The notes under the pieces: model-generated | Seen by the model: the letters and a program-made list of their open reading frames with translations, nothing else | Told to the model about the DNA's origin: nothing | The model's database searches: none | Translations under genes and position numbers: made by a program | In this document: piece after piece, positions 15,622-32,653 of the stretch | Layout: each line of letters begins with the position of its first letter | Numbering within the stretch: position 1 is the first letter of the stretch | From: Thermoplasmatales archaeon | GTDB lineage: Archaea; Thermoplasmatota; Penumbrarchaeia; Penumbrarchaeales; Penumbrarchaeaceae | Direction: 5' to 3' | Assembly (NCBI GenBank): GCA_030595715.1 | Contig: JAUVCN010000018.1 | Span: 1-35,829 of the forward strand | Length of the DNA: 35,829 nucleotides

Positions 15622-17709
15622 ATGAAAGAACAGGGTAACCGTTCGTTCAGTGCTGGACTGGACCGGACTCTTGTATTCGGTATCTTGACAGCATCCCTAT
15701 TTTTGTTCCTGGTCATGGAAGGGATGAATGTTGATTCTGAGGTTACCCGTTCCAATGTGGACTATATCGGGTACATCGATGGCGAGGGAGACTCGGATGA
15801 TATACTTCTGGCCGGTCATCGATGGTACACATGCAATTTTACCTTCGTAGATTGGATAGAGAGTGTTGATCGGGCAATGGTGAAGATGGGATACGGGACC
15901 ACGGTCCAAGAGCTGTTCGAATTTACTCCCTCCACCGAGGAGCTTACCAATCTGGACACGTCTGGATTGGTTGATGTCAAGGACCCTCTGATCGTCCTCC
16001 AACGTGGTGTGAACCTTACTTTGACATTCAAGATCTGGGTCCATCTCAATTGGTCCCATGATCCCATTGTGGAGCTCACACCGGAGATCTGGTCCAATGG
16101 GACAGGTCTGGAATTGGATTCAGCGAATCTCCTCAGGTTCGAGATACATGGAAAACTTGAACCATTGACAGACAGGATAATGGTCATCGATTCATTGGGA
16201 AGACAGGTAGGGACAGGTGAGGCTGTCCTTTCGGGTTCAGTGGTTTCGGTTACAGGTATATCATTCCAGTATGATGACATCTCGGACCGTTTTTCAGGGC
16301 TTCAGCCAGTTCCATCCGAGATCTCTCCGATCGTTGGGTATGGCGACATTCGATTCAATACGACGTTCAAAGGTTCAGGTTATCTTGCCGAAGTGATCAT
16401 CTCCGAACTTGAAACGGGAACGATCGATCTGACCATTGATATCCCGGAGATAAGGGATGAATGGTTATACAGTCTTGAAACATGGACATTCTCCATCGAC
16501 ATCGATGGACTGGGTCCCAAGATCGACATGATCAAACCTGCAAAGAACCAGCAACTGGGTGATGTGGAATTCGAATGGAACGTTACCGTAACGGACAGAC
16601 CCGTACAATCAGGGGTTCTCGTTAATGGATCGACCGCTCAATACAGGGTCTGGACCAGGGCAGGAAACTGGACCGATTGGAATGATGTTGTTGAAAAGGA
16701 AAATGCAAGATCGGTATTCTTCACCGGCAACGCTATAGGTGAACCGGGAAAGGACTCAACAATGGTCCAGTTCAGGGTGAAGGACGAACTGGGGAATCTG
16801 AACATCTCGATCGAATTTCCGGTACACATCAATGTCGCACCTGTCATCCATATCTCTGCCGAAAACATTGATATGGAGCTCATGGACAATCAATCCCTGA
16901 ACCTTGATGGTTCCGAATTTGCCTCTGATGAAGATGGTGATAATCTACAATATGAGTGGTATCTCGATGATTCGGATGCGCTTTCAACATTGAAGGATTT
17001 CCGTAAACCCCTGTTCGATGTGGAACCTGGCCTTCATACTGTCAGAATAGTCGTTTTCGATGGGTTCGTCAAGGTCGAGGCTTCATTCGAAATTAACGTT
17101 ACCATGGCACCCGTAGAGATTGATGAAAGGAGCATTATCGAGAAGTTCATGGATGATGAGAACTTCTATCTGATCGTGATCCCGGTGGCAGTCCTGCTTG
17201 TTTTCATCCCCATGGTGATAATCATCATTTTGATATCCAAGAAGTCAAGGGATAGGAGAAGGGATGATTTCATCATCGATGAGGATCGGTCAATGGATCG
17301 GAGTCAGGCCGAGGATACAGCGAGAAGGATCCTTCAGAACATGACGGAAGCTCAGGAAGCCGAGTTAGAAATGGGTGCGGAAGCAGTGATAGAAACCGAA
17401 GGTTTCGATTTCGACTATGATCTCTACGAGGTCATAGGTCTTGATCAGACGGCCACAGAGGTCGAGATCAAGAAGAAATACAGAAAATTGGCGGCTTTCT
17501 ATCATCCGGACACTGTCGCCCTGAATGGGCAGATCTCGAAAGAAGATGCAAGGGAACATATGGTCAAGATCAACAAGGTGAAAGAGGTCCTTCTGGATCT
17601 CGAGGTCAGGGAGAGATATGACGAGTATGTCTCCGATTCGGATTTCGATATGGACATCGGTGACCTCCATGATGAAGAAGATGATGATCTCGAAAATGAA
17701 TGGGATTAA
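15622..17709 (+). CDS. Membrane protein with large ectodomain and cytoplasmic DnaJ (J) domain
   Basis: A 695-residue protein. A hydrophobic segment at ~16-34 acts as signal anchor or signal peptide. The ~480-residue ectodomain is beta-rich with many Asn-X-Ser/Thr sequons and, near 405-495, a PKD/Ig-like region (LDGSEFASDEDGDNLQYEWY, then LHTVRIVVFD). A second membrane helix at ~515-539 ends in the basic stop-transfer KKSRDRRR. The cytoplasmic tail carries a J domain at ~598-670: YDLYEVIGLD, helix II with KKKYRKLAAFYHPD, and ERYDEY. The essential HPD is intact at 628-630, so stimulation of an Hsp70 (DnaK) ATPase at the membrane is expected. The acidic C-terminus is disordered. If residues 16-34 are an uncleaved helix, the N-terminus is also cytoplasmic. 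A 61-base gap separates it from the giant-protein operon. Confidence 0.83.
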   Translation: MKEQGNRSFSAGLDRTLVFGILTASLFLFLVMEGMNVDSEVTRSNVDYIGYIDGEGDSDDILLAGHRWYTCNFTFVDWIESVDRAMVKMGYGTTVQELFEFTPSTEELTNLDTSGLVDVKDPLIVLQRGVNLTLTFKIWVHLNWSHDPIVELTPEIWSNGTGLELDSANLLRFEIHGKLEPLTDRIMVIDSLGRQVGTGEAVLSGSVVSVTGISFQYDDISDRFSGLQPVPSEISPIVGYGDIRFNTTFKGSGYLAEVIISELETGTIDLTIDIPEIRDEWLYSLETWTFSIDIDGLGPKIDMIKPAKNQQLGDVEFEWNVTVTDRPVQSGVLVNGSTAQYRVWTRAGNWTDWNDVVEKENARSVFFTGNAIGEPGKDSTMVQFRVKDELGNLNISIEFPVHINVAPVIHISAENIDMELMDNQSLNLDGSEFASDEDGDNLQYEWYLDDSDALSTLKDFRKPLFDVEPGLHTVRIVVFDGFVKVEASFEINVTMAPVEIDERSIIEKFMDDENFYLIVIPVAVLLVFIPMVIIIILISKKSRDRRRDDFIIDEDRSMDRSQAEDTARRILQNMTEAQEAELEMGAEAVIETEGFDFDYDLYEVIGLDQTATEVEIKKKYRKLAAFYHPDTVALNGQISKEDAREHMVKINKVKEVLLDLEVRERYDEYVSDSDFDMDIGDLHDEEDDDLENEWD

Positions 17710-17770: not shown

Positions 17771-20700
17771 ATGAGAGATGATATTATGCAGAAACTTTCA
17801 TCCAGAGGATCAGGTAAGAAAGCCGATCTCAAGGCAGTATCCGAAGCAATAGGTACGGTCCTTCTGCTTGGAATCTCTATCACATTGACTGGCGGTATCG
17901 CTCTCTGGACCTCTCAGATCGAGGAGGGTGATGAAGCCCTTATCGTCGATCTGTGGGCCTATATAAGAGGAGATGATCTTGTCCTGATCCATCGGGGTGG
18001 GGATCGTCTTGAAGGTGTTACCACCTTGATAACTCTCCTTGACAGCTCGAACGTTCAGATATCCTCCGACGATTATGAAACCCTGTCCGCAGACACTGAT
18101 GGGTCATGGACCACCGGAGAAGAGCTTACCATGGATGTATCCGGTATCCCTGATGAATTCCAGATCCTTGTAACAGCGGTAAAGAACACCGGTGTCACAA
18201 CGGTCATCTTGAAGAATTCATTGGTAAGGTCCTCTTCCATTTCAGCGTTTGCCGATCTAGCTATCACACGTGTGACAATAATGAATTCAGATTCGGTCCC
18301 GGTAACGAGGATCAATGATGACGGGACATACATCTTCTTTGTGGAGATCATGAACTTCGGAAGCGACATGTCAAGCCCACATTTCTCTGTAAGCGGTGAT
18401 AATACACTGAACAATCTCCGTCTGTTCGACGAAACGGATGAACTTGAATTCAGTGGTATCGTTGCTGTCCATTATACAAATGGAGGAACGACCACATTGT
18501 ATCCCGGTAATGGTGGATTCGGAAGACTCCTCAATGGGGATACCATTGAAGTATATTTCACCTGGGGAAGGACAACAATGGACCCAAGGACCCTGGGATT
18601 GCATACACTGAATGTAAAGATCATTCCGTTCCTGGAGGGTGAAAGGGATTACAGCAATAATTATGTCAAGAGGGAATACAAGGTTGACAAATTATTGAAA
18701 CCGATACCATTCTTCGGACCCGATCCGGGAATATACAGTGTGACATTCAGCGATGATGCTCCGAACAGCGGAGATGTGGTGATCGTTACCGTGATCGTTC
18801 AAAATTCAGGTGATCAACCAATTCGTGCAGAGGACGGGGTTTCGCTGGTTGTGTCTCTATGGAAACCGGAGATCCATCAGAGTGTCAGTACAGTTTCTTA
18901 CGACTGGAGGGGCGACTTTGCAGGTCATGAAGGCGATTGGAGGGGCACAGTGGACCATATCCCTCTGTTCTATGATGATGAGTTCCCAACCTGTGTGGTT
19001 CCGAACATTGCGCTTCTTACCGGTGCGTATTTCTTCTTCTATTTCGAACTCGAAGCGAGAGTGGATGTTCCAGGTGGAATGCAATGGATCTATGCTGCTA
19101 TCGATGTGTATGATGAACCTGATCATCAGGAAGGGATACCGATCATCAACGGAGATTCTACGAACGATAACTTCGCTCTCAGTTCTATACAGGTCCTGCC
19201 ACGGATCCTTCTGGTGGATGATGATGATGTAGCAACCGGATCTGATGATGATATGACATCATCGGTTCTGGAATCATTGGTTGGATCTGGTATAAAGATA
19301 GACACTCTATTTCAGACAGATCGGATCATGGACAACGGAGTTGAAAGGGATGGACCTGCTTTTTCCTATGAACAGGATGGAATATCTACAGCTTCCATGG
19401 AGGATTTCGATGTCGTGATCTGGGTAACAGGGTATGTAGCGGACCCATTGACAAATAATATCTCCGATCCTGGTGGAGGGAATATTCAGGAAATGATGAA
19501 ATTCATGGATGACAACGGCTATTTGATGATCGTTGGATCGAGACCATTCGGAGGACTGGCATCGCATTTCGGTTCCGGAAACACCTTTCCGGTACCAGCT
19601 TTGCCTCCGGCCGAGGAACCATATGCGGAGAATGCTTCCGTATTTCTATATAATTATCTGGGTATCAAGAAGGTCGATACCGGTATCGATATGCCAGGCG
19701 GAGAGGGAGCCCACTTTGTTGGATCGGATACTGACGAAGGAGGATTGACCCCAGGTGCCAATTATTCGATCACTCTTCGTGAGGGTCCGGATAACGATCC
19801 GGAAATGGACCTATTTACGATCCGCAGCGAGTTCGATCCCGTATCCTTTGGATTCGAAACACCGGTAGGTGTGCTATCGACGGAGGCGGATCTGCTTACC
19901 CTCCCTCCAAGGTACAGTGTTGTCAGATCGAACTCCACTCCCGATGCAAACCAATCAAATTCGCAGTATAGATCCGTTTCTATCTCATTCGATATCAAGG
20001 ATATCCGGTATCTGAACGAGAAGATCGATCTGATAGCCACCGTATTGAAATGGTTCGACTGGCAGATCAATGTGGGAAGGGACCTGGCGATCACGAAGAT
20101 GGAGATGTCCATCATTACAGAGGTCATCGACGGTGGAACGACGGTCTGGGAACCGATACCTGTGACCAATGATAATCTTCCAAAATATCTTGATACCATC
20201 CTTATCGAAGCTACAGTTCGTAACAATGGACCTTCTGTGGATGGATCCTCCGTGATATTCTATGTAAAGGGACCGGATGGGGTCGAACTTCCGATAACAC
20301 CTGGAATACCGGATCCAAGGACCGAAGAGAGGGAGATCTACGGGAATCCATATGATGTCCCCTCGATCCCCGGAGCGGGCGGTGAAGAGGAGATCTTCAA
20401 GCTATGGCTTGCTGTGGGAGTGGGAAGTTACGAGTTCAGGGTGGTAGTTGATCCGTATCAATTGGTTTCGGAGATATCAGAAGAGAACAACGATATCTCA
20501 TATTCCACCTCCACGATCACTTCGTTCGTTACCCAGAACAATGTTCTGATAGTCGATGATGATTCATCTGATGATAATTTTGACTGGGGTGGTGAAACCC
20601 AGGGAATGAAGGGAACAAGGGTGATCGATTATTCATCGAGAGGCGGAGAACCCAGTGAGCTGATAAATACATCCCTCACCATGATGGATATCGATCACGA

Positions 20701-23700
20701 GGTCCATATTGTAAGGAACTCGTTCAATGCAAGTGAAGGTTGGACATATGATAGCGGACTTTCGATCATCGATCTAAAGAGATACAATTCGATCATATGG
20801 ATCACCGGGGATACAGGGGACAGGGCCGGTCCGGTGAAAAGAGAGACATTGACCGATAATGATATCAGGTCCATCTCATACTATCTGGATGGGAATTATC
20901 CGGAAGCTGACTATCTTCCTGTAACACACAATGAGAACATGATGTTCATAGGTCAGGGTTTGATCCCTGAACTGACCACTTACGGTGATGAGATGGTCAC
21001 TGCCTCGATGAGCGTCGATGAATTCATCATGGAATATCTCGGGATCGCAACTTCCGATCCGCTTGAAGGAACTGCCAGATTGGCCTATGGTCCCCCATAT
21101 GGTGAATTCCTTGAGGATATCTTCGTCGGCATCCAGTACTTGACAGATGATTTCGATATGAGGTTCGATCATTCTTCGATCACTGCAGATCCCGGGATAG
21201 ATGCTGATATGCAAACGTTCACACCGGGTCTGTACACCATAGACGATTCCACACGCACCATTCGTATGATATCCGGTCAATACTCGTATCATGACGAGGT
21301 TGTTAGCAATCACTTCAGAACGCTTACTCATTCATGGCAGATAGGAGCATCGGATCATGATCTGCTCGAGACCACATTAAATGAGATCATGTTCCTTTGC
21401 ATGCACTGGTTCGAGACACCGTCAGAGAAACCGGAACTTGTGGGGCGGAATACCAAGATATTCTTTGAGAACGATCATCCGGTCATCGGAAATTCCTATC
21501 TGGTAGTGGTAGAGATAATAAACCTGGGTGGGGCCCCAGGTGGTGGAACCGTTCGTTTCAGGGACGGAGGGACACTGGTCAACTCCATTAACGTCTATCT
21601 CGATCCCGACCAGTCAACGATACTTGAGACCATATGGACCCCGCTCTATGCCGGAACACGGGAGTTCACCGTCTCGATCGACCATTTCAATGATTATGAT
21701 GAGATCTTTGACACGATGAACAATGTACCCAGGCAGAGAAGGACGATCTATTTTTTCTGGGATAACCTGGAGTCAGGGACCGACAACTGGGACCATGATG
21801 CGACCATTATGCTATTGAATGGTGAATCACCGGTCGATTTCATGGATCCTCTGATACCCGATGTGGACACAAATGTGATCTCCGAATGGGACGATACTCT
21901 GAGCGTTGGTATGGAAACCACCGATAACGAGAGCCATAGCGCGCCATATTCTTTCTATTTGAAAGAGGCACAGGGTGTGACAAGATCCAACGCCAATGTC
22001 CTGTTATCCATTGTCATAGATGACTCGGCCTCCATGACCGGTCGATATGCTAGCGATGGAGTTACCAATTGGTTGGAATCTGCAAAAGATGCAGCCAAGA
22101 TCCTCCTTGACCAGTTGAGCAACGATTCGGTCGTCATCTCCATATGGGATTTTGCCGGAAATCTTGAAAGAAGGTTTTCCGGTCCTGATGATGATATCTC
22201 ATACTCGAGCAGTAGTGTTGCAACCAGCATCAAGAGATTACCTGTTCGATTGGGAGATGATCATGGAGGAATAGATGGTAGACAGCTGATAAGGAACGAG
22301 ATTGATTCCATGTCGAATCCATCCGGCACAACGATACTATGGGATGCCATAGGTGGAGCATACGAGGATATCTCATACTATTCCTCCTACTATCCGGACC
22401 TCAATCCGACCGTCATAGTCCTTTCCGATGGAACGGATGTTCAGGCATCGGACAGGGGTACTCTTGGATATCAGAAACTGGAAGCAGGTTCCGATGCCTG
22501 GGCTCCCTGGGATGATATGGCCGACGGAACTCAAAGTTACGATAATGGACATTTCGGAAAGTATACGCTGGATTGGTCCGACCCTGCAGGAACTACCGAA
22601 TGGGTATGGGCCCTTCAACACGGTGGAGCAATAGATAGAACAAGGATCGGGCTTCTCTATTCGGATATCCCGATATACACGATCGGCCTTGGAGTGGAAG
22701 GCCATGATCCGCCATATGAACCGGTAAGGACAACCAGGCCTGCAGAGTATACACTGGATACCACATATGCGGTCTGCACGGGAAGCGGATGCCAGGAATC
22801 AGGAACCCTGGAATACAATCTCTGGAGAATAGCAAATACATCGAAAGCGCAGTATTTCCACGCTCCATCAGCAGACGATCTGGCCGATGTGTTCAAGACA
22901 CTGGGTCAATTGATCGCCGATCAAGGTTCAATGACCCGTTCTTCCCTCGAAATGACGAGGGCCGACGCTGATCCGGAGGAGGATAATTCCAACAAGACCG
23001 CAGTGACAAGAACGGTTTCCATATTGGGCTCTTCACAGGCCATGGTCTCACTATGGCATAAGTTTGACTTCGTAGGTGGATCGAACGGAGCTTACATGGA
23101 GGTCGGTTATCGGGACCCGGATGTCGATTCGAACGGGAACGGCATCGGGAACGATGATTGGGACTGGAAGTATATCATTCCATCCAAGGGCCATTACAAT
23201 GATAATCTCTACCTTTCCGTGGAACGGAAGGATTCATTCGACAATGATATTGTCTGGGGATGGAGTGGAACATCCGGTAATGGCAGGTTCACCTGGGACT
23301 ACGTGGAAGTTGACCTTCTGGACCATGTTCCGGAAGATTATCGCGGAATGGTCAAGGTCAGGTTCTGCTACGTTCAATATGGGGGAGGGACAGGGAATGG
23401 TTGGTGGATTGATGATGTCCGGATCTCGGTTTCCAGGACGGAGTCCACTGCTGTTGGTGTCTTCAATCCTGATATGTGGACATATCTCACGGGATCGGAA
23501 TTTTCAGGAAATACCCATAGCGGGGCCCATTCCTGGTTTGCTGGTGATATGAAGAACAAGGATGGGGATCTTCTGGATGGAGTTGATAATTCGCTCTATA
23601 CCAGGAGCATTGATCTTACAAATGCAAAGAGCGCGACGCTTTCAGCTTACTTCAAATTCAACATCGACAAGGAAGCGGGCATGCCACCCGACTGTTTGAG

Positions 23701-24346
23701 GGTAGAGGTTTCCACTGATGGCGGTTTGACATGGATATCGCTGAACATGGGTGTAAGAGCAGCGTGGGGTGTAAGTGGTTCCGAACCGGATGATGGTGAT
23801 GGTTTCGAGGATAAGAGATCATACACCGGTATCGATGAGGGGGGTGGATGGGTGAATGCCAACACGATGACCAGGCTGACGACCGATCTTAGCGGATTCC
23901 TGGGAAATACAATTAGGATCAGATTCAGGATCGTAACCGATGTCGAAACGGACCATTTCGAGAGCGACTCCGAACCCAAAGGCGTCTATATCGATGATAT
24001 CGTGGTCTACGGACAATCATTGGAATCAACAAGAAGCTCGAACGATGATATCATTCCATTTATGATGGAAGGACCTTCGAATGAGATGAAAGATGTTCCA
24101 GTCTTCGAAGGATCGTCAGGATATGTAGGAAGCTCAAAGGAGGATATCTCTCCATCAGGAGCGGAAGGGTCCTTCGATGAGTTGAATGGGATACATCATG
24201 ACATGACCAACGAGACCATGGCCGGAGGAACATCCATTTCGTTGGTGGTCCTCTTTGCACTCATATTAACGATGATATCCATCAAAAATCTGATAAGGAA
24301 ACGTAAGGGGAAAGGAACTGAACGTATGCAGGAGGTGGTCGAATGA
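17771..24346 (+). CDS. Giant pilin-like/vWA surface protein, paralogue A
   Basis: A 2191-residue protein. The N-terminus has a basic stretch, then AVSEAIGTVLLLGISITLTG (~22-41), like archaeal type IV pilins, and the pilin-type DLVLIHRGGDRLEG follows. Domains by eye: two CARDB-like domains (~155-450); an amidotransferase-like Rossmann domain starting RILLVDDD (~475-655); CARDB (~765-905); a second such domain (~922-1200); and CARDB (~1219-1320). Next comes a jelly-roll (MAM-like) domain interrupted by a vWA domain. Its MIDAS is D1417-x-S1419-x-S1421, then TTILWDA and LSDGTD. The jelly roll resumes at ~1748-1890. A further jelly roll (~1900-2075) precedes a C-terminal membrane helix (~2155-2172) and basic tail. 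Likely exposed on the surface, with both ends at the membrane unless the N-terminus is processed. Adhesive or fibre-forming role inferred. Ends in ATGA overlap. Confidence 0.82.
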   Translation: MRDDIMQKLSSRGSGKKADLKAVSEAIGTVLLLGISITLTGGIALWTSQIEEGDEALIVDLWAYIRGDDLVLIHRGGDRLEGVTTLITLLDSSNVQISSDDYETLSADTDGSWTTGEELTMDVSGIPDEFQILVTAVKNTGVTTVILKNSLVRSSSISAFADLAITRVTIMNSDSVPVTRINDDGTYIFFVEIMNFGSDMSSPHFSVSGDNTLNNLRLFDETDELEFSGIVAVHYTNGGTTTLYPGNGGFGRLLNGDTIEVYFTWGRTTMDPRTLGLHTLNVKIIPFLEGERDYSNNYVKREYKVDKLLKPIPFFGPDPGIYSVTFSDDAPNSGDVVIVTVIVQNSGDQPIRAEDGVSLVVSLWKPEIHQSVSTVSYDWRGDFAGHEGDWRGTVDHIPLFYDDEFPTCVVPNIALLTGAYFFFYFELEARVDVPGGMQWIYAAIDVYDEPDHQEGIPIINGDSTNDNFALSSIQVLPRILLVDDDDVATGSDDDMTSSVLESLVGSGIKIDTLFQTDRIMDNGVERDGPAFSYEQDGISTASMEDFDVVIWVTGYVADPLTNNISDPGGGNIQEMMKFMDDNGYLMIVGSRPFGGLASHFGSGNTFPVPALPPAEEPYAENASVFLYNYLGIKKVDTGIDMPGGEGAHFVGSDTDEGGLTPGANYSITLREGPDNDPEMDLFTIRSEFDPVSFGFETPVGVLSTEADLLTLPPRYSVVRSNSTPDANQSNSQYRSVSISFDIKDIRYLNEKIDLIATVLKWFDWQINVGRDLAITKMEMSIITEVIDGGTTVWEPIPVTNDNLPKYLDTILIEATVRNNGPSVDGSSVIFYVKGPDGVELPITPGIPDPRTEEREIYGNPYDVPSIPGAGGEEEIFKLWLAVGVGSYEFRVVVDPYQLVSEISEENNDISYSTSTITSFVTQNNVLIVDDDSSDDNFDWGGETQGMKGTRVIDYSSRGGEPSELINTSLTMMDIDHEVHIVRNSFNASEGWTYDSGLSIIDLKRYNSIIWITGDTGDRAGPVKRETLTDNDIRSISYYLDGNYPEADYLPVTHNENMMFIGQGLIPELTTYGDEMVTASMSVDEFIMEYLGIATSDPLEGTARLAYGPPYGEFLEDIFVGIQYLTDDFDMRFDHSSITADPGIDADMQTFTPGLYTIDDSTRTIRMISGQYSYHDEVVSNHFRTLTHSWQIGASDHDLLETTLNEIMFLCMHWFETPSEKPELVGRNTKIFFENDHPVIGNSYLVVVEIINLGGAPGGGTVRFRDGGTLVNSINVYLDPDQSTILETIWTPLYAGTREFTVSIDHFNDYDEIFDTMNNVPRQRRTIYFFWDNLESGTDNWDHDATIMLLNGESPVDFMDPLIPDVDTNVISEWDDTLSVGMETTDNESHSAPYSFYLKEAQGVTRSNANVLLSIVIDDSASMTGRYASDGVTNWLESAKDAAKILLDQLSNDSVVISIWDFAGNLERRFSGPDDDISYSSSSVATSIKRLPVRLGDDHGGIDGRQLIRNEIDSMSNPSGTTILWDAIGGAYEDISYYSSYYPDLNPTVIVLSDGTDVQASDRGTLGYQKLEAGSDAWAPWDDMADGTQSYDNGHFGKYTLDWSDPAGTTEWVWALQHGGAIDRTRIGLLYSDIPIYTIGLGVEGHDPPYEPVRTTRPAEYTLDTTYAVCTGSGCQESGTLEYNLWRIANTSKAQYFHAPSADDLADVFKTLGQLIADQGSMTRSSLEMTRADADPEEDNSNKTAVTRTVSILGSSQAMVSLWHKFDFVGGSNGAYMEVGYRDPDVDSNGNGIGNDDWDWKYIIPSKGHYNDNLYLSVERKDSFDNDIVWGWSGTSGNGRFTWDYVEVDLLDHVPEDYRGMVKVRFCYVQYGGGTGNGWWIDDVRISVSRTESTAVGVFNPDMWTYLTGSEFSGNTHSGAHSWFAGDMKNKDGDLLDGVDNSLYTRSIDLTNAKSATLSAYFKFNIDKEAGMPPDCLRVEVSTDGGLTWISLNMGVRAAWGVSGSEPDDGDGFEDKRSYTGIDEGGGWVNANTMTRLTTDLSGFLGNTIRIRFRIVTDVETDHFESDSEPKGVYIDDIVVYGQSLESTRSSNDDIIPFMMEGPSNEMKDVPVFEGSSGYVGSSKEDISPSGAEGSFDELNGIHHDMTNETMAGGTSISLVVLFALILTMISIKNLIRKRKGKGTERMQEVVE

Positions 24347-27300
24347 GAAAGGATCTTAGTGGACCCAAGAGGTTGAAAGGAAGAAGGAATAGTGGTGTAT
24401 CCGAAGCAATTGGCACAGTCTTGATGCTTGGGATATCGATATCACTTGCCGGTTTTGTAGCCTTGTGGGCCAACAGCATCGAAGAGGGAGAAGAGGGCAT
24501 TTATTCTGATATATGGGCTACAGTTCAGGGAACCGACCTCATACTGACCCATCGCGGAGGGGATATCCTTGATGGGTCCAATACGATGATAATCATAACG
24601 GATGGGACCCATGGAGAGGTCCATCGTGATTCCTACTATACGTTATCAGGTACTAATGATAAGAGCTGGTCGGCGAGTGAAGGTCTTTCCATTGATCTAT
24701 CCGGTGTGGATGATTCATTCGATCTGGTGATCACTTCGATACTCAACAGTGGAAAACCCGTGGTGATCCTGAAGAACTCAATGGCGAAGACGGCCATTGC
24801 CTCGGGACTACCGGACCTTGCGGTCACACAGGTGACCTTTCTGAGATCTGATGGTGTATCGATCACCAAGCTGAACGATTACGGTACCTACAGGATCCGT
24901 GTTGAGGTGACGAATTTCGGTTCTGATATGACATCTGTCTATTTCTCTGATGAGGGTAACCATCTCGTGGAGAATCTGAGATTGTACGATCGAATGGATG
25001 ATCTATTATTCACAGCACTTACGATAGAACATTATGATCTGGACCTCGATTACGGTGGAACAGATGGCCACTATGTTCCGGATGGACACGCAAATTTCGG
25101 GATAATGGAGACAGGTGACAGAATGGAATTTGAATTCAACTGGACCGCCACATCGGTTCTTCCAAGGACCCTGGGTCTCCATTCTCTCAATGTGAAGATA
25201 GTGCCGCATTATCAAGGTGAGATCGATTACAGGAACAATTACGTGGAAAGGGCATTTACCGTTGACAAGCTTATCACACCGGTTCCGATATTCGGTCCCG
25301 ATCCAGGGCTGTACGATATATCGTTCAGCAATGAAGCTCCAAATTCCGGAGAGGAAGTTACGGTTACCGTGATCATTCAGAACTCCGGGGACCAATCGAT
25401 CCTTCCAGAGCATGGGGTCCATCTTATCGTATCCACCTGGCAGCCCAAGGTGAATGTATCAATAAGTACCGTATCATATGATTGGAGGGTCGATTCGATG
25501 GCGAATTATGGGAAATGGAAGAGTGAGGTACCTTCGGAATCCCTCAATTATGATATCGAATTCCCGACCTGTATCGTACCCAATATCACCCTTCTTCCTG
25601 GTGCTTATTTCTTTTACTATTTCACACTGGAGGCAAGGGTCGATGTTCCTGGTGGTGAACAATGGGTATATGCTGCCATAGATGTATACGAGAATGCCGG
25701 ACATCTTGAAGGGATAGCGATCGAGAACGGTGATGACAATGGTGATAATTTCGCCCTTGGTAACATTCAGGTCCTTCCCAGGATCATGATCGTGGATGAT
25801 GATAGCTCGTCCTCCGGGTCTTCCGGTGATATGACCTCATCCGTGATCGAGGCCCTGGTAGGGTCCGGTGTGACCGTTGACACTATATTCGTACCACAGA
25901 CAGTGGAAGATGATGGGCTTGATAGGGATGCACCTGCGTTCTCATACGTGCAATTCGACAACCCTGCCCCCGCGCTGGAAGATTATGATATTGTGATATG
26001 GGTTACGGGTTACGATGAAGATCCGTTGACGAACAATCCGAATGCGAGCGAATATCGGGGAAATATCCAAGAGATCATGGAATATCTGGATGCACGGAAA
26101 TATTTCCTCCTTATCGGAGAATCTCCTCTGGAAGGACTCTCCATCAATTTCAACGGAGGAGACCCACTTTCAGATTCTGGCATTGGATCACTTTCCGAAT
26201 ATCAGGCTGCCAGCGATTTCGTGTACAAATACCTGGGGATATCGAGATTGGTGAACGATCAGGATATCAACTCCACGGATACCACACTTTACGGTATCGA
26301 TAATGGTGCTGGAGGTCTGACGCCGAAGGAACCGGATGATTCGTTATTCGAGATCATCCTTGACGATCAGATAGCAGGCAACGGATTGAGCCAGTTTTAT
26401 CTCCCCAGGGATATTTTCATTCCAGGAGGGGTGGGATTCGAGCCGGCCCAGGGAGTTCTGACATATTTCTCCGAATTCCCCCTGGATGGGACGGATTACG
26501 TCAATACCATCAGGAGCTATTCCGCACCTTTGGGGAATTATAGCCTACAATACAAATGCGCTCTGATCGGATTCGATGTGAAGCAGATCACGTATCTTAA
26601 TGAGAAGATCGACCTGATCGCCGGTTTCCTCCGATGGTATGATTGGCAGATCAATGTGGGAAGGGACCTTGCAATAACCAAGATGGAACTTTCGATCATG
26701 AAAGAAGTTGAGCAGTCACCAGGTGTTTTCACATGGATATCGGACCCGATCGATGATGATAATCTACCGAAATATCTGGACACCATACTTATCGAAGCAA
26801 CTGTCAGGAACAATGGACATGCACCCGAGTCCACATCGGTAATGTTCTATGTTACAGGACCGAACGGTATAGAGCTTCCCGTGGCGACCGGGATCCCTGA
26901 CCCGACGAACAACGGAACCACCGAACCTTACTCCAATCCAAAGGATATCAGTGGTCTGGCAGGAAATGGTGGGGAGGAGTATGTTTACAAGTATTGGCTT
27001 GCAGTTGGTGTTGGGACCTACGCCTTCAGGGTGGTGGTCGACCCCTATCATCTGATGTCGGAGATATCAGAGGACAACAACGATATCACATACTCCACAT
27101 CGACGATAACATCATTCGTGACCCAGAATAATATCCTGGTGGTGGATGATGATTTCTCATCAGATAATTTCGTTGTAGGTCCACCGACCAATACCGTGAA
27201 AGCAGGTAAGACATATACCTATTCGAACGGAGAACCTTCCGAGATCATATCGGATGTTCTCGATGACCTGGAATATGATTACGAGGTCCATACCGTTCTT

Positions 27301-30300
27301 AACAGCTACGATGGTGTGGACTGGACCTATGATAGCGGCCTTTCGATCCTCGATCTCAAGAGGTACAATTCCATTCTATGGGTGACCGGTAGTTCCGGCC
27401 AGCGGGACCTGAACAGACCGGAAGCATTGACGGTTTCCGATATGTATGGGATAACAAAGTATCTGGATGGTGTGTACGACGAGGCGGAATACCTTGATGT
27501 CGATCATCACGAGAATCTCATGTTCATCGGTGAGGGTTTCTATGATGAACTGATATATTTCAATTCAACCGTCTTCGATGTGGAAGGCTCAAGGGACCTT
27601 GCCGATTTCGTCACTGATTATCTCGGCCTCGACCCTGCGGGAGCGACATCTGCAGGCACCGGTGATAATCTGTTCGGATTGAGAGAGGGAGATATAATAT
27701 CGGATGTGTTCATGGGGGTCGATTACTGGCCTGTTCATTTCAATGCCAATTTCGAATACACCGGTCTCCCGCTTCCTGCACAACTTGAAAGTGAAGGAAG
27801 AGAGCTTATTCCCGGACTCTACTTTGTTGTCGATGATGATGAATACTATCCCGTGACCACTCAGTTCCATATGATGAATGGGTCCACGGACAATTATTTC
27901 CACACCATCGTCCACTCATTTGACATGACGACCATGAAAAGGTCATCCGTCGAGACAGCCCTTTACGAGACGCTCTACCTATCGATGCATTGGTTCGGGA
28001 CCCCCGAAGACCAGTCGGAGATCCTATCGAGGAACTGCTTGATGTCATTCGATAATGACAATCCGGTTCTGGGAAACTCCTATTTGATAGAGCTGGAGAT
28101 AGCCAACCTGGGTGGGGTAGCGGGTGGTGGAACCGTGAGGTTCACGGATGGGAATACCCTTGTGAAATCCGAGAATATATATCTGGACCCCGATACTACG
28201 ACCACATTGGAGGCGATCTGGACCCCTCTCTATGCCGGAGACAGGACCCTCGTTGCATGGATCGATAGATATGATGATTATGATGAGGTCTTCGATATAA
28301 TCAACAACGCTCCTTTCAAGGAGAAGGAGATCTTCTTCTTCTGGGATGATATGGAGAACGGATCAGAGAACTGGGGACATGAATCAACAGAGATAATGAT
28401 AAACGGTGAGGGAAAACTTGATTATATGGATGAACCGACATATGTCAATATTGAAAATGAATGGTTGACAATGGATGGTTTCTATCTCAATCATGATATT
28501 GAGAATCCACATATCCAGGCGCAGTACAAGAGTTCTCCCAACTCATATTTCATGCATGAAAGTTCGGGCAGCATTAAAAAAGCCGTTGACGTGGCCCTGG
28601 TCATCGATTCATCCGGGTCGATGGGTGAGGACTATGACGACAACGATCCCGACAATGTAAGGAAGAGTGCAGCGAGGAATTTCATCGACAACATGTATGA
28701 TGAGGACCAGGTTGCTGTGTTCGATTTCGACAGCAGTGTCAACATGGTCATGGGTCTGACCAGCGAGAAGACCGATGCCAAATCATCCATCGGTGAGATA
28801 GATTCTTCAGGTTCAACAGCACTTTATGACGCCGGTATCGATGCACTTCGATATATGGGGGCCAATGCCAGAAGCGAGAACCAGGTCGTCAGGGCCGTTG
28901 TGATCCTGACCGATGGCGAGGATACGGCAAGTACGAACAGATTGTCAGATTTCTGGGCTGTCAGGGACCAATACGACGATTCTCCGTCAACAGAGGAGAA
29001 GATATTCGTTTTCACCATCAGACTGGTAGATGGGGATGAAAACGTACTGCGGTCGATGTGCACTCAACCGTGGGATGAGGGCCCATATTATTTCTATGCC
29101 AACGACGCAGAAGATCTGAACAAGATCTACGAGACCATCAGGAGTATCATTCAGGACCTCTCTCAAGCAGCGACCAGAGGTTTGGAGGATGAGACCAGGG
29201 CTGCCAGAGGTGTTACCATCTTCGATGAGAGTTTTGATGGATTTACATCGATAGCGGATCTGAACGTCGCCGGATGGGCAACGACCGGTGACCCGGATCC
29301 TTCCAAGACGGCCTTCAATTCAACACCCATATCCATAGAACTCGAATACAGGGATGATCTGGAGACCCCGGTCATTGACCTATCACTCTACCAGGAAGCC
29401 TATCTGGAATTCAACTGGCGGTCTGCAGCAGATGATACTGCGGGAGCCAATGGAATACCCGAGCGTGGAGATAGGTTATGGGTGGATATATACACCAGTA
29501 CGGCAGGAGGCACGTGGGTTCCAGATTATTATCTGGTCAACAATAATTGTTTCTCCACACCGTGGACAAGGGAGAGGATCCAGCTTCCGGATGAGGCCAT
29601 ATGGAATGGTTTCCAGATCCGGTTCAGGGCAAGTACCAGCTCGAGCGATCCTATATTTGATGCATATTATCTGGATGATGTGAAAGTGATCGAAGGTGAT
29701 TTCGGATCAGGATCCCTGGGAGTTCAGAACTACAATAGATGGGACGATGGTGTTTCTGAGGCCAGGGACAAGTACATCGAAACCAAGACGATAGACCTTA
29801 GATATGTCGATGAAGCAGAACTTTCATTCGAACATAAATACAATATGAAGATAGGAAGCAATGGCGGTGTGATCATGATCGGAACCTCTGATTTTGTGGG
29901 AGGGCCCTTTACTTACAAATATTCACAGCCTGACCAACCATACACAGGTAATATCCTGATATCCGCATGGGAAACAACCCTTGATGATCACGGGACACCG
30001 ATGAAATGGTGTTTCAACGGGATATCATCCTCCGGAACCATGGATTGGGACAAGATCACTGTCGATCTGACTGAATTCTCCGGAAAATATGTAAGGGTCA
30101 AATTCCAGTATCTCTTCAATCAGGGAGGCACGGGATACGGGTGGATCATCGACGACGTTCATGTTACCATAACATCGGACAGGGTGGACTCATCGAAGTA
30201 TCTGACAGATGATGCCTGGAAATTGATAAAGGCATCAACACCCGGGATCGAGTCACACAGCGGTTCCCATTCATGGTATGCCGGGGATCCGGCATATTCA

Positions 30301-30954
30301 GGTGGTGACCTGAAGGACGGAGTTGATAACTCCCTCTACACCAGGAACATCGATCTTACAAATGCGAGGAGCGCAACTCTCTCGGCCTATTTCAGGTTCA
30401 ATCTCGATCAGACACCTGGAAGACCTCCCGACGGGTTCAGGGTGGAGGTATCATCGGATGGCGGCAATACATGGATGGCCATCAATCTAGGTGTTAGGTC
30501 TTCATGGTCCGTATCCGGGGTCCTCAACGATGCATCGGATGGGATCATGGATGGGAAGTCATTCTCCGGGATAGATGCCGGGAACAACTGGGTCGAGGCC
30601 GGATCATTGACACGACTTATTACGAATCTGAACGGTTTCACGGGTAATGTGATCACGATCAGGTTCAGGGTTGTAACGGATACGGACCCGGATCATTTCG
30701 ATGCCACCGAGGCAGCGACCTTCAGGGGATTCTACGTGGATGATGTCATCGTCTATGGTGAGTCTCTCGAGAGCTCCAGATCGGACATGGAAATGCCTCC
30801 GATGGTCGATATGGAGGGACCTTCCAACGAGGAGGTTTCCCCTTCATCAGCTGTTTTACGAACCGGAAAGGAGAGTATAGATACCTGGATGTTCCTTCCA
30901 TTGACCATACTGGGAATCATCAGTCTCATGTGGGTCAGGAGGAATGCGGATTGA
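24343..30954 (+). CDS. Giant pilin-like/vWA surface protein, paralogue B
   Basis: A 2203-residue tandem paralogue of the preceding protein with the same domain order. The pilin-like N-terminus is SGVSEAIGTVLMLGISISLA (~16-35) with DLILTHRGGD. Then come CARDB-like domains (~155 and ~320), amidotransferase-like domains (~477 and ~928) and CARDB (~772 and ~1228). The start of a jelly roll at ~1330 is followed by a vWA domain with a canonical MIDAS (D1422, S1424, S1426 in DSSGSMG; STALYDA; LTDGED). Unlike paralogue A, a complete extra jelly roll (~1626-1785) lies between the vWA domain and the resumed jelly roll (~1806-1945). A last jelly roll (~1973-2135) and a short C-terminal helix (WMFLPLTILGIISLMW) follow. 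Its ATG overlaps the preceding stop (ATGA). Co-expression with A suggests hetero-assembly (inference). Confidence 0.82.
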   Translation: MRKDLSGPKRLKGRRNSGVSEAIGTVLMLGISISLAGFVALWANSIEEGEEGIYSDIWATVQGTDLILTHRGGDILDGSNTMIIITDGTHGEVHRDSYYTLSGTNDKSWSASEGLSIDLSGVDDSFDLVITSILNSGKPVVILKNSMAKTAIASGLPDLAVTQVTFLRSDGVSITKLNDYGTYRIRVEVTNFGSDMTSVYFSDEGNHLVENLRLYDRMDDLLFTALTIEHYDLDLDYGGTDGHYVPDGHANFGIMETGDRMEFEFNWTATSVLPRTLGLHSLNVKIVPHYQGEIDYRNNYVERAFTVDKLITPVPIFGPDPGLYDISFSNEAPNSGEEVTVTVIIQNSGDQSILPEHGVHLIVSTWQPKVNVSISTVSYDWRVDSMANYGKWKSEVPSESLNYDIEFPTCIVPNITLLPGAYFFYYFTLEARVDVPGGEQWVYAAIDVYENAGHLEGIAIENGDDNGDNFALGNIQVLPRIMIVDDDSSSSGSSGDMTSSVIEALVGSGVTVDTIFVPQTVEDDGLDRDAPAFSYVQFDNPAPALEDYDIVIWVTGYDEDPLTNNPNASEYRGNIQEIMEYLDARKYFLLIGESPLEGLSINFNGGDPLSDSGIGSLSEYQAASDFVYKYLGISRLVNDQDINSTDTTLYGIDNGAGGLTPKEPDDSLFEIILDDQIAGNGLSQFYLPRDIFIPGGVGFEPAQGVLTYFSEFPLDGTDYVNTIRSYSAPLGNYSLQYKCALIGFDVKQITYLNEKIDLIAGFLRWYDWQINVGRDLAITKMELSIMKEVEQSPGVFTWISDPIDDDNLPKYLDTILIEATVRNNGHAPESTSVMFYVTGPNGIELPVATGIPDPTNNGTTEPYSNPKDISGLAGNGGEEYVYKYWLAVGVGTYAFRVVVDPYHLMSEISEDNNDITYSTSTITSFVTQNNILVVDDDFSSDNFVVGPPTNTVKAGKTYTYSNGEPSEIISDVLDDLEYDYEVHTVLNSYDGVDWTYDSGLSILDLKRYNSILWVTGSSGQRDLNRPEALTVSDMYGITKYLDGVYDEAEYLDVDHHENLMFIGEGFYDELIYFNSTVFDVEGSRDLADFVTDYLGLDPAGATSAGTGDNLFGLREGDIISDVFMGVDYWPVHFNANFEYTGLPLPAQLESEGRELIPGLYFVVDDDEYYPVTTQFHMMNGSTDNYFHTIVHSFDMTTMKRSSVETALYETLYLSMHWFGTPEDQSEILSRNCLMSFDNDNPVLGNSYLIELEIANLGGVAGGGTVRFTDGNTLVKSENIYLDPDTTTTLEAIWTPLYAGDRTLVAWIDRYDDYDEVFDIINNAPFKEKEIFFFWDDMENGSENWGHESTEIMINGEGKLDYMDEPTYVNIENEWLTMDGFYLNHDIENPHIQAQYKSSPNSYFMHESSGSIKKAVDVALVIDSSGSMGEDYDDNDPDNVRKSAARNFIDNMYDEDQVAVFDFDSSVNMVMGLTSEKTDAKSSIGEIDSSGSTALYDAGIDALRYMGANARSENQVVRAVVILTDGEDTASTNRLSDFWAVRDQYDDSPSTEEKIFVFTIRLVDGDENVLRSMCTQPWDEGPYYFYANDAEDLNKIYETIRSIIQDLSQAATRGLEDETRAARGVTIFDESFDGFTSIADLNVAGWATTGDPDPSKTAFNSTPISIELEYRDDLETPVIDLSLYQEAYLEFNWRSAADDTAGANGIPERGDRLWVDIYTSTAGGTWVPDYYLVNNNCFSTPWTRERIQLPDEAIWNGFQIRFRASTSSSDPIFDAYYLDDVKVIEGDFGSGSLGVQNYNRWDDGVSEARDKYIETKTIDLRYVDEAELSFEHKYNMKIGSNGGVIMIGTSDFVGGPFTYKYSQPDQPYTGNILISAWETTLDDHGTPMKWCFNGISSSGTMDWDKITVDLTEFSGKYVRVKFQYLFNQGGTGYGWIIDDVHVTITSDRVDSSKYLTDDAWKLIKASTPGIESHSGSHSWYAGDPAYSGGDLKDGVDNSLYTRNIDLTNARSATLSAYFRFNLDQTPGRPPDGFRVEVSSDGGNTWMAINLGVRSSWSVSGVLNDASDGIMDGKSFSGIDAGNNWVEAGSLTRLITNLNGFTGNVITIRFRVVTDTDPDHFDATEAATFRGFYVDDVIVYGESLESSRSDMEMPPMVDMEGPSNEEVSPSSAVLRTGKESIDTWMFLPLTILGIISLMWVRRNAD
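30937..30953 (+). promoter_or_regulatory. Ribosome binding site that sets a TTG start
   Basis: AGGAGG at 30937-30942 lies 8 bases before TTG at 30951, which overlaps the TGA of paralogue B (TTGA). The upstream in-frame ATG at 30930 has no such site and would extend the protein by seven unusual residues, so the TTG is the better start. Confidence 0.65.
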
Positions 30955-31802
30955 AGAACCTTGTCAGGGACCGGAAGGGAGACGCGGTGATGGTAACATC
31001 GGTACTGCTCCTTTCCCTCCTTCTTTCCGTCGGAGGAAAACTCCTCCTCGATCAGGGAGAGATACAGGGAAAGGAGGATGACATGCTCCATGTTGCCGAC
31101 GTGGAGTCTTCGATGCTGAGGACCAGGTCCTCGATGCTGGTCCTTCAGGAGAACCAGGACCATTCCATGGTGATCATGAACCGTGTGACACTTGGAACCT
31201 ATGGCAGTCCATATCTGGGTGTGGCCAGATCATCCGGGGAACTATCCTTTGATCCATCTTCCGATGAATACCATATGGGTATCTATCTGGAGGAAGGCGG
31301 AACAAGATCACTGCTCAATTCCATTAATGGACAGTTGAAGTTCGAATCGAACAATTTCTATTATCATGATCAGAACCTTTTCTTCCAATCCGGAGGTATA
31401 GTCCGGGATGAATATGGTTCATACGCGGTTGCCTGGTCGCCTTCTATCGATATCATCAAAGGGCCATCCACATGGGCGATCTACGGAAATATCTATGGCA
31501 TGACCGGAAGTAAGTGGTCGATCACAGGGATCGAGTCCATTTCGATGATCATCAGAATGGCAGGGTCCTCTGATGTCTCACATGTTCTATCGGCCGGGCA
31601 GACCATTGTGCTCGTATATGACGGAGATACGAATTCAGCCTGGGAGGAATGGTGGAGATCAACAGCTCAACTGAACGGATTGACAGTTGGTACTGACATC
31701 GACCTCACATGGCCATCAGGTATATCGGGACCTTTGGAAGTTGAATTGATATCACTCGAGTCGATCAAACTGAATATTGGGGATATGGAGGTGAGTATAT
31801 GA
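30951..31802 (+). CDS. Small pilin-like secreted or membrane protein
   Basis: About 283 residues from the TTG start. A basic N-terminus (KNLVRDRKGDA) is followed by a hydrophobic helix at ~13-30 (VMVTSVLLLSLLLSVGG). It ends in a beta-rich C-terminal domain with no recognised family motif. The layout resembles archaeal minor pilins and pilin-operon accessory proteins. The polar segment after the helix is probably helical (EDDMLHVADVESSMLRTRSS), as in the pilin stalk. It lies between the giant paralogues and another pilin-like gene and overlaps both by four bases. A role as minor subunit or assembly primer of the surface structure is inferred. Confidence 0.72.
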   Translation: MKNLVRDRKGDAVMVTSVLLLSLLLSVGGKLLLDQGEIQGKEDDMLHVADVESSMLRTRSSMLVLQENQDHSMVIMNRVTLGTYGSPYLGVARSSGELSFDPSSDEYHMGIYLEEGGTRSLLNSINGQLKFESNNFYYHDQNLFFQSGGIVRDEYGSYAVAWSPSIDIIKGPSTWAIYGNIYGMTGSKWSITGIESISMIIRMAGSSDVSHVLSAGQTIVLVYDGDTNSAWEEWWRSTAQLNGLTVGTDIDLTWPSGISGPLEVELISLESIKLNIGDMEVSI

Positions 31803-32653
31803 GAGTACTGAAGGATACATACGGCGTATCCAATGTAGTATCTTTGATAATGATAGCCGGTATCATCGTTTCCCTGATGGGGATGGTATTCGCAACATAC
31901 CTTCCCGCCTGGGGAAAGGACAATGAGGCACAGACGTTGGAGGAAGTGATGGGCTCTTTCATGGACATGAAATCCGGTATGGACACACTAGCGGTCGGAG
32001 GTGATGCAGGGACATCATTAACGACCAAGATGCCTCTCGGATCCGAAGGGGGTCCGATGTTCGGATTTGGACGTATGACAGGTTCGATCTTCCTGGATAG
32101 AGAAGGTGGCCTGATGCAAGTGTCCGACGGAACCGGTGTAGTATACGGTCAAAGTAGAGGGCGTATCATATACTCGTCGAACAACATCAATGTGGAGGAC
32201 CAGGAGATCACACTTGAAGGAGGTGCTCTTTTCAGGGAACAATCGGGAGCGTCGGTGATGAAGGGTCATCCGAATCTGCTGATCAACAACTACGAGAATA
32301 CGGGTGAAGTGATCTTTTTCATACTGATGCCAACCATCGAAGGTGTTGATCAGAGCTATACAGGGACATCGACATACCTTGTATCGACAACTCTGGTATC
32401 AGAAGAGAAGACCGATTATTATATGGGACCCGGAACATCCACAATATTCAGGGTAACCTCGGAATATGCGGATATCTGGTATTCACATATCAGGACCATG
32501 GCTATCTCCGAAGGTCTGGTCGAAGGCGCGGCCAATGATTTCGTAGCATCGACCGGGGTCGATGGCGATGGCAACGATTATTTCGAGATCATCTTGTACA
32601 ACATCGACAGGATAGAGGTCAGAACAGCGATCTATCAGATAAATATCAACTAG
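31799..32653 (+). CDS. Pilin-like protein with archaeal type IV pilin-type N-terminus
   Basis: A 284-residue protein. The N-terminus MRVLKDTYGVSNVVSLIMIA continues into a hydrophobic helix (~12-34) ending in LPAWGKDNEAQ. This pattern (basic residues, GVSNVV, helix, then a helical stalk EEVMGSFMDMKSGMDTLA) is common in pilin-like proteins of archaeal pilin operons. The remainder is a beta-rich domain of unknown family. It starts within the preceding stop (ATGA). It ends in TAG inside a CTAG that is also the stop of the convergent NMD3 gene, so it is the last gene of the operon. Prepilin-peptidase processing before GVSN or VSN is plausible but untested. Confidence 0.75.
   Translation: MRVLKDTYGVSNVVSLIMIAGIIVSLMGMVFATYLPAWGKDNEAQTLEEVMGSFMDMKSGMDTLAVGGDAGTSLTTKMPLGSEGGPMFGFGRMTGSIFLDREGGLMQVSDGTGVVYGQSRGRIIYSSNNINVEDQEITLEGGALFREQSGASVMKGHPNLLINNYENTGEVIFFILMPTIEGVDQSYTGTSTYLVSTTLVSEEKTDYYMGPGTSTIFRVTSEYADIWYSHIRTMAISEGLVEGAANDFVASTGVDGDGNDYFEIILYNIDRIEVRTAIYQININ

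Follow-up and report, generated by a model that had tools for sequence, protein, structure and literature searches.

The window analysed here is a stretch of 35,829 nt from a Thermoplasmatales archaeon (assembly GCA_030595715.1, contig JAUVCN010000018.1) and corresponds to the entire contig C181 of the genome designated G000 (assembly of 3.07 Mb, 95.6% complete); other genomes, loci and contigs are given G, L and C numbers. Two very large open reading frames (ORFs) lie in tandem on its forward strand: giant A (P0001), at 17771 to 24346, encodes 2,191 amino acids (aa), and giant B (P0002), at 24343 to 30954, encodes 2,203 aa. Both ORFs are intact, with no internal stops, and their products are 45% identical across the first ~1,585 residues. 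An earlier sequence-only reading of the window had described them as tandem paralogues of ~2,200 residues, with coordinates that proved exact. All features listed below are on the forward strand unless stated otherwise.

Both giants carry a predicted class III signal, consisting of a basic leader, G or A at position -1, and about 20 hydrophobic residues. The predicted prepilin peptidase site follows residues 1 to 22 in giant A (17771 to 17836, ending K-A before V23) and residues 1 to 18 in giant B (24343 to 24396, ending S-G before V19). When residue -1 was tallied across 77 giant-type ORFs, it was G in 46 and A in 31, with no other residue; residue -2 is charged in giant A (K) and not in giant B. 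The pilin domain extends over about residues 23 to 150 of giant A (17837 to 18220), with a hydrophobic helix, the HRGGD motif, and a W..GE motif, and over about residues 19 to 149 of giant B (24397 to 24789); HxGGD, with W..GE further downstream, marks the domain. In a genome search with Pilin_N (PF07790; cut-off, 25.2 bits), both proteins scored above the cut-off (26.8 bits for P0001 and 39.1 bits for P0002), and in a whole-protein hmmscan P0002 was above it (33.9 bits) and P0001 below (20.7 bits). For P0001, the Pfam model thus leaves the assignment borderline, and a family profile makes it clear. That profile was built from 23 relatives, with the window proteins excluded to avoid circularity, and gave 62.3 bits for P0001 and 67.5 bits for P0002, or 67.7 and 71.6 bits, respectively, for the leader plus the first 130 mature residues. 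The beta-domain without the helix scored 30.6 bits in P0001 and 31.0 bits in P0002, and shuffling the beta-domain as a control lowered the score to a mean of 28 to 29 (maximum, 36). Because the beta-domain scores alone and its shuffling lowers the score, the similarity covers the whole pilin domain and not only its hydrophobic start.

Further profile comparisons pointed the same way. When the family profile was searched against the whole PDB, the only significant matches were four archaeal pilins or pilin-like proteins (8fj5, E = 1.6e-12; 9myg; 8gi2; 8rey), and a profile-profile comparison of the giants with 15 small pilins of Thermoplasmatota aligned 127 columns (probability, 98.6; E = 8.6e-16). 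A PDB search with the beta-domain only gave 8fj5 as the best match, which is not significant alone (E = 0.19). Judged from these sequence comparisons, the N-terminus of each giant is a complete archaeal pilin domain, as the pilin-type N-terminus with its HRGGD motif had led the sequence-only reading to propose; the profile check and shuffle control do not reduce it to an ordinary signal anchor. The giants and the small pilins differ right at the start of the helix, because mature position 3 is E in 69, D in 5, and S in 3 of the 77 giant-type ORFs and P in all 15 of the 15 small pilins.

Downstream of the pilin domain, CARDB was matched by Pfam scan in both proteins, at residues 809 to 908 of giant A (20195 to 20494; E = 6e-11), where a second CARDB stretch scores elsewhere, and at residues 814 to 915 of giant B (26782 to 27087; E = 3e-12). 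The vWA domain lies at 22007 to 22918 in giant A, with its right boundary set by eye, and at 28588 to 29133 in giant B. By Pfam, it is matched in P0002 by PF00092 (4e-13) and only weakly in P0001 (VWA_2, 20.6 bits, under the 27-bit cut-off). Every residue of the metal ion-dependent adhesion site (MIDAS) anticipated from the letters is present in both proteins (D1417-x-S1419-x-S1421, T1521, and D1553 in P0001; D1422-x-S1424-x-S1426, T1492, and D1524 in P0002), which makes metal binding by the vWA domains of the giants putative. In the first of the twin giants of a related genome, G020, the last D is lost (LTAGDD). An InhA-like MAM jelly-roll domain was matched at 23576 to 24007 in giant A (E = 3.5e-9) and at 30229 to 30753 in giant B (E = 2e-13), so that the CARDB and jelly-roll domains of the sequence-only reading were both recovered. 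Giant B has a further jelly-roll candidate at 29377 to 29688, which resembles a reelin subrepeat by a weak match below the cut-off. AlphaFold models were made of residues 1 to 478 and 1325 to 2203 from a five-sequence alignment. Foldseek comparison of the low-confidence P0002 model of residues 1325 to 2203 ranked vWA, reelin, and immune inhibitor A folds at the top, in agreement with the profile matches and of little independent weight; that of residues 1 to 478 returned generic immunoglobulin-like chains and was not used.

Each giant also contains two related segments of ~165 residues with an alpha/beta look, defined by alignment and located at 19190 to 19690 and 20534 to 21040 in giant A and at 25768 to 26262 (residues 476 to 640) and 27127 to 27627 (residues 929 to 1095) in giant B. 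These had been labelled amidotransferase-like. The segments gave no Pfam match at E ≤ 10 and no meaningful PDB profile match, and their alignment contains no invariant Cys; a class I glutamine amidotransferase, which would have an invariant catalytic Cys, was therefore rejected and the label dropped.

By hydropathy, each protein ends in a membrane helix followed by basic residues (24233 to 24295 and an RKRKGK tail in giant A; 30883 to 30936 and RR in giant B), as had been noticed before. Within the window's family, all 5 proteins that are complete have a C-terminal helix with a basic tail, as does another group of relatives (e.g., L056, L073, L076, L083, L092, and L103), but the helix is missing from most giants, including those of the motor operons described below. 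The suggestion that the proteins are anchored at both ends may thus stand for the window's lineage and does not extend to the family as a whole. The helix may be shed, or the complex in these lineages may stay tied to the membrane. No PGF-type sorting motif was seen by eye before the helix in the C-terminal 62 residues of P0001, P0002, and related giants, no archaeosortase search of the genome being made, and with no sorting motif archaeosortase anchoring was rejected.

The twins and two companion genes are tightly packed, since consecutive ORFs overlap by 4 bp (giants A and B), 25 bp (giant B and a gene for a 290-aa protein), and 4 bp (the 290-aa gene and a gene for a 284-aa protein). The 284-aa companion (31799 to 32653) matches DUF7289 (PF23960; 5.9e-13) and has a class III-type start, YG/VSNVVS. 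The 290-aa companion (30930 to 31802) has no Pfam match; it has a pilin-like N-terminus and would be a distant DUF7289 relative, with a phmmer E-value of 1e-12 to DUF7289 genes, and an orthologue 44% identical occupies the same position in L058. A membrane J-domain protein (15622 to 17709; DnaJ, 2.8e-15) is encoded 61 bp upstream of giant A. The order J-domain protein, giant or giants, 286-aa protein, and DUF7289 is kept in G020, which has twin giants, and in G029, which has a single giant of 2,530 aa.

DUF7289 genes come after the giants in the pilus operons of relatives. In G076, which belongs to the same class as the window, one directon contains twin giants of 2,040 and 2,109 aa; two DUF7289-type genes come next, and after them a T2SSE ATPase, which matches PilB3_C weakly, and a pair of T2SSF genes. 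The same set of giant, DUF7289-type gene, ATPase, and paired TadC was found in eight more loci (L053, L086, L087, L088, L095, L096, L097, and L104), all from one distant family; per locus, the ATPases number one or two and the giants, which measure about 830 to 1,370 aa, one to three. Together with G076, this makes nine loci, drawn from two families, in which giants adjoin a pilus ATPase and paired TadC genes. Epd-like pili and Tad are described as having two platform genes of a single domain each (PMC6668835), and the archaeal census reports paired tadC genes for many euryarchaeal clade 2 systems (PMC4858521). In L053, L086, L087, L095, L097, and L104, a tandem pair of different T2SSE ATPases precedes the paired TadC genes; these could be separate extension and retraction motors, or could serve two pilin sets.

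The genome of the window was searched for a prepilin peptidase and a pilus ATPase, and both are present. The peptidase is a 307-aa ORF on C73 with MDIRTRRI and GGADAK motifs (PF06847, 30.3 bits). A motor set on C64 consists of an ATPase and two single-T2SSF TadC genes, the ATPase being 61% identical to that of the G076 giant operon and 35% identical to the genome's own archaellum ATPase. Two small VSP-type pilins are encoded on C17 and an archaellum-like operon on C47. A genome that has these small pilins and this archaellum locus besides the peptidase and the ATPase with its two TadC genes cannot be said to lack pilus machinery. It also has two more T2SSE ATPases, on C190 and C16, without adjoining TadC genes; of these, the C190 protein matches PilB3_C weakly.

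Spread was surveyed in 284 Thermoplasmatota genomes at least 90% complete, and a Pilin_N match was found in 205. Sizes were taken from the best 150 Pilin_N matches, which comprised 69 ORFs of 100 to 250 aa, 24 of 250 to 1,000 aa, and 57 of at least 1,000 aa (from 49 genomes); this split of the best 150 describes two size classes with a thinner middle, the giant class among them running from about 1,100 to 2,650 aa. Twenty-eight giants, picked for matching the pilin profile, were scanned for domains. CARDB was found in 13, MAM in 8, FG-GAP in 7, VWA_2 in 6, and a laminin-G lectin in 4, with PKD and beta-helix in single ones. The relatives thus keep one pilin domain and combine it with exchangeable vWA, FG-GAP, lectin, PKD, beta-helix, CARDB, and MAM modules. 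A 2,166-aa VSE-type giant stands as a lone gene at 9936 to 16436 of L121, in the closed 1,486,778-bp genome G034. An N-terminal-alignment search of a contig collection gave no match in a first scan; a second scan returned two relatives in metagenome-assembled genomes of 'Candidatus Thermoplasmatota' along with a beta-helix protein whose similarity is confined to the downstream CARDB and the repeated segment. This pattern-based contig search was blind to the wider family, which the whole-genome searches recovered.

Module history was followed with segment trees. In the tree of residues 1 to 1330, P0001, P0002, and the G029 giant group together (100/98), with the second G020 twin on a long branch, which limits what its position there can say. 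In the tree of the vWA and jelly-roll region, P0001 groups with the second G020 twin (100/100), apart from P0002, the first twin, and the G029 giant, and the vWA domain of P0001 is 60% identical to that of the G020 twin versus 28% to that of P0002. Since these well-supported trees conflict, the two vWA types would be older than the present stalks. The history of the vWA and jelly-roll region that differs from that of the N-terminal stalk suggests module exchange, or gene conversion of stalks between twins.

On balance, P0001 and P0002 are probably giant modular minor pilins that present adhesive modules, most plausibly at the tip of a pilus. In this mechanism, the leader would be removed by the FlaK-type peptidase. 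The pilin domain would join a type IV pilus that the PilB3-like ATPase builds with its two TadC platform proteins, and the DUF7289-type companions would enter along with it. Present in small numbers, the giants would serve as special subunits at which the filament starts or is capped, and their modules would be displayed beyond the cell envelope, where they may grip a partner cell, a polymer, or a surface; the vWA domain would probably do so through a MIDAS metal ion. In the window's family, the C-terminal helix, if not removed, would also keep the far end in the membrane, so that the complex may remain at the cell surface or on a very short filament. The sequence-only reading of giant pilin-fused adhesins agrees with the pilin domain, the vWA domain with intact MIDAS, the adhesion-type modules, and the giants in the pilus operons of relatives; capping a fibre, one of the roles it offered, is retained as the best reading, the position being predicted.

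Several points weigh against this interpretation. Cleavage, filament entry, adhesion, and the ligand are what we infer, and the tip or initiating position is suggested by size and by analogy with the tip complexes of Streptococcus sanguinis and Tad pili (PMC9934059, PMC12075869). Residue -2 is S in P0002 and variable across the family. For both ends, the AlphaFold models are of poor quality (mean predicted local distance difference test scores, 52 and 44) and speak neither for nor against the fold. Motor operons are limited to two families, one close and one distant, so that linkage is not universal, and many giant loci have no ATPase inside the flank examined. The motor of the window's genome is on a different contig, C64, and is tied to the giants by orthology only. 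The C-terminal membrane helix of the window's family is hard to reconcile with export to a distant tip.

That helix bears on a possible, though doubtful, alternative, in which the giants are surface adhesins whose processed pilin domain is a membrane anchor only and never part of a filament; an arch of adhesion domains would be held on the membrane by the N-terminal helix and, in the window's family, by the C-terminal one as well, with the motor used at most for export. The helix and basic tail in all five complete family proteins and in the second group of relatives fit this arrangement, giants are often away from any ATPase gene, and class III signals occur on non-pilin surface proteins in archaea, as in the bindosome. 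An anchor alone, however, would account poorly for conservation of the entire pilin beta-domain beyond the helix, for the many relatives (most of them) without a second anchor, and for the nine loci that co-encode giants with an ATPase, two TadC proteins, and DUF7289 pilin-like genes. We strongly doubt a pseudopilus-type secretion or capture device, in which short-filament subunits would bind substrate and bring it in, as at the tip of the type II secretion system pseudopilus or in the Sulfolobus bindosome. Although the lectin, FG-GAP, and beta-helix modules of relatives can bind polymers and the twins with their companions look like a bulky tip set, the modules are of adhesion type, the window contains no coupled substrate-uptake or hydrolase genes, and no dedicated transporter lies beside the loci examined.

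It is very unlikely that the giants make up a thick fibre as its principal subunits. The pilin domain could polymerise and the twins could alternate, but ordinary small VSP-type pilins are present in the same genome and in many relatives, the giants differ from them at position 3, and subunits of ~240 kDa would crowd the pilin core, with second anchors in the window's family besides. The proposal that the proteins themselves form a fibre was accordingly set aside, given the small pilins of this genome and the second anchors. An ordinary signal anchor that is pilin-like by chance is hardly tenable: the 20.7 bits of P0001 against the 25.2-bit cut-off would allow it, whereas leave-out profile scores of 62 to 72 bits, shuffled beta-domain controls of at most 36 bits, and solved archaeal pilins as the sole significant PDB matches refute it at the level of sequence.

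Modular pilins are already known in bacteria. An InterPro survey based on a bacterial motif listed more than 1,200, the largest named having 860 residues (PMC8179133), and vWA and lectin modular pilins are located at the tip in Streptococcus (PMC8179133, PMC9934059). PilB (vWA) and PilC (ConA lectin) of S. sanguinis resemble the giants in having a class III signal, a pilin moiety, and grafted modules, and in occurring several per pilus system; the PilB vWA domain has a MIDAS (PMC8179133, PMC9934059), and vWA and lectin modules are likewise carried by the giants of the phylum. If a modular pilin is a pilin module joined to a domain that is not particular to pilus biology, the giants qualify through vWA, CARDB, and MAM and, in relatives, FG-GAP, laminin-G, and others. 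Bacterial modular pilins have the IPR012902 motif, usually one or a few modules, and no more than 860 residues in the 2021 survey (PMC8179133), whereas the giants have the archaeal Pilin_N, many modules, and up to 2,200 to 2,650 residues, with a C-terminal membrane helix added in the window's family. No Pfam match for an IPR012902-type N-terminal motif was found in the giants. Because Pilin_N takes its place, the giants are an archaeal counterpart outside the surveyed bacterial set.

Other systems share parts of this arrangement. In Tad pili, a large pilin-like subunit carrying a C-terminal module (TadG/KilN) is encoded along with smaller pilin-like companions (TadE, TadF, KilL, and KilM) and a motor that has two platform proteins, and TadG/KilN-type subunits have been proposed as exchangeable tips (PMC12075869). 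The giants differ in being far longer and in having DUF7289 companions, and the window proteins, when scanned against Pfam and NCBIfam, matched no TadE or TadG family; the likeness is one of gene content and layout only. The tip adhesin PilY1/PilC is, like the giants, a large modular vWA protein, proposed to mediate adhesion and sense force at the tip of the pilus, but it has no pilin domain, is not a pilin, and docks through the minor-pilin complex (PMC9210963). Ordinary archaeal PilA-type pilins (8fj5, 8gi2, and 9myg) are homologous to the giants across ~125 residues and differ in being mostly 140 to 210 aa, with a VSPVIA start and no added modules. The census of Makarova et al. (2016) places large DUF2341 proteins in clade 1 (Epd-type) loci and, in Thermoproteales loci, large proteins that are secreted or anchored at the C-terminus (PMC4858521). 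Those proteins are also large, lie in archaeal type IV pilus loci, and were proposed there to be tip adhesins, minor pilins, or S-layer-like (PMC4858521). They were predicted from context (PMC4858521), whereas in the giants a full pilin domain can be demonstrated and DUF2341 was not matched. Pilin_N giants with vWA, CARDB, or FG-GAP are not described in the main-text passages of that census, its supplements excluded (PMC4858521), and no description of giant or modular archaeal pilins was found in the open-licence literature searched, an absence that is weak evidence. The claim that this is not a described system thus holds for the giant archaeal form, as far as that literature goes, and fails for vWA and lectin modular pilins as such, which are well described in bacteria (PMC8179133, PMC9934059). 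The giant Pilin_N form, spread through the phylum, is a new variant.

How archaeal type IV pili recognise specific targets is poorly known, and census papers list possible adhesins by gene context alone. A phylum-wide pilin domain with interchangeable modules, linked to a motor in several lineages, offers direct candidates for pilus-borne adhesins in archaea. The module-grafting strategy of bacterial pilins is thereby shown to exist in archaea too, with another pilin family and at two to three times the largest size in the bacterial survey. It also raises the mechanical question of how a pilus motor handles a subunit of ~240 kDa with a second membrane anchor.

Several neighbouring genes recur near giants. 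A single-helix membrane protein with 13 FG-GAP stretches, forming an integrin-alpha-like propeller, is encoded at 8587 to 11529 and is 45% identical to that at 2555 to 5335 of L057, near the giant pilin of that genome. With this FG-GAP protein near the twins, an integrin-alpha-like protein and two vWA proteins occupy one neighbourhood. A quite unlikely elaboration is that the giants are double-anchored pilins, with the pilin end in the filament base of the motor and the other end held by the membrane helix; the motor would extend or strain the adhesive arch, which, joined by the FG-GAP membrane protein and both vWA proteins with their MIDAS, would form an archaeal motor-driven, integrin-like grip and touch sensor. 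The J-domain protein at 15622 to 17709 has an extracellular PKD-like part and a cytoplasmic C-terminal J-domain, and such proteins are also encoded immediately ahead of giants in L039, L040, L046, and L041 (908 aa). A J-protein dedicated to pilus or giant-protein biogenesis would be unusual if true. On the reverse strand, two overlapping ORFs at 11534 to 15468 encode coiled-coil proteins that have zinc-ribbon ends; their DNA is low in G+C and strongly skewed between strands. Divergently oriented weak homologues lie next to giants in L039/L058 and L040/L057, with a similar-looking ORF in L046. In L045, L054, and L124, secreted ORFs adjoining giants have a carboxypeptidase-like start (LGTTWEGR...MGGHH), M14-like by eye.

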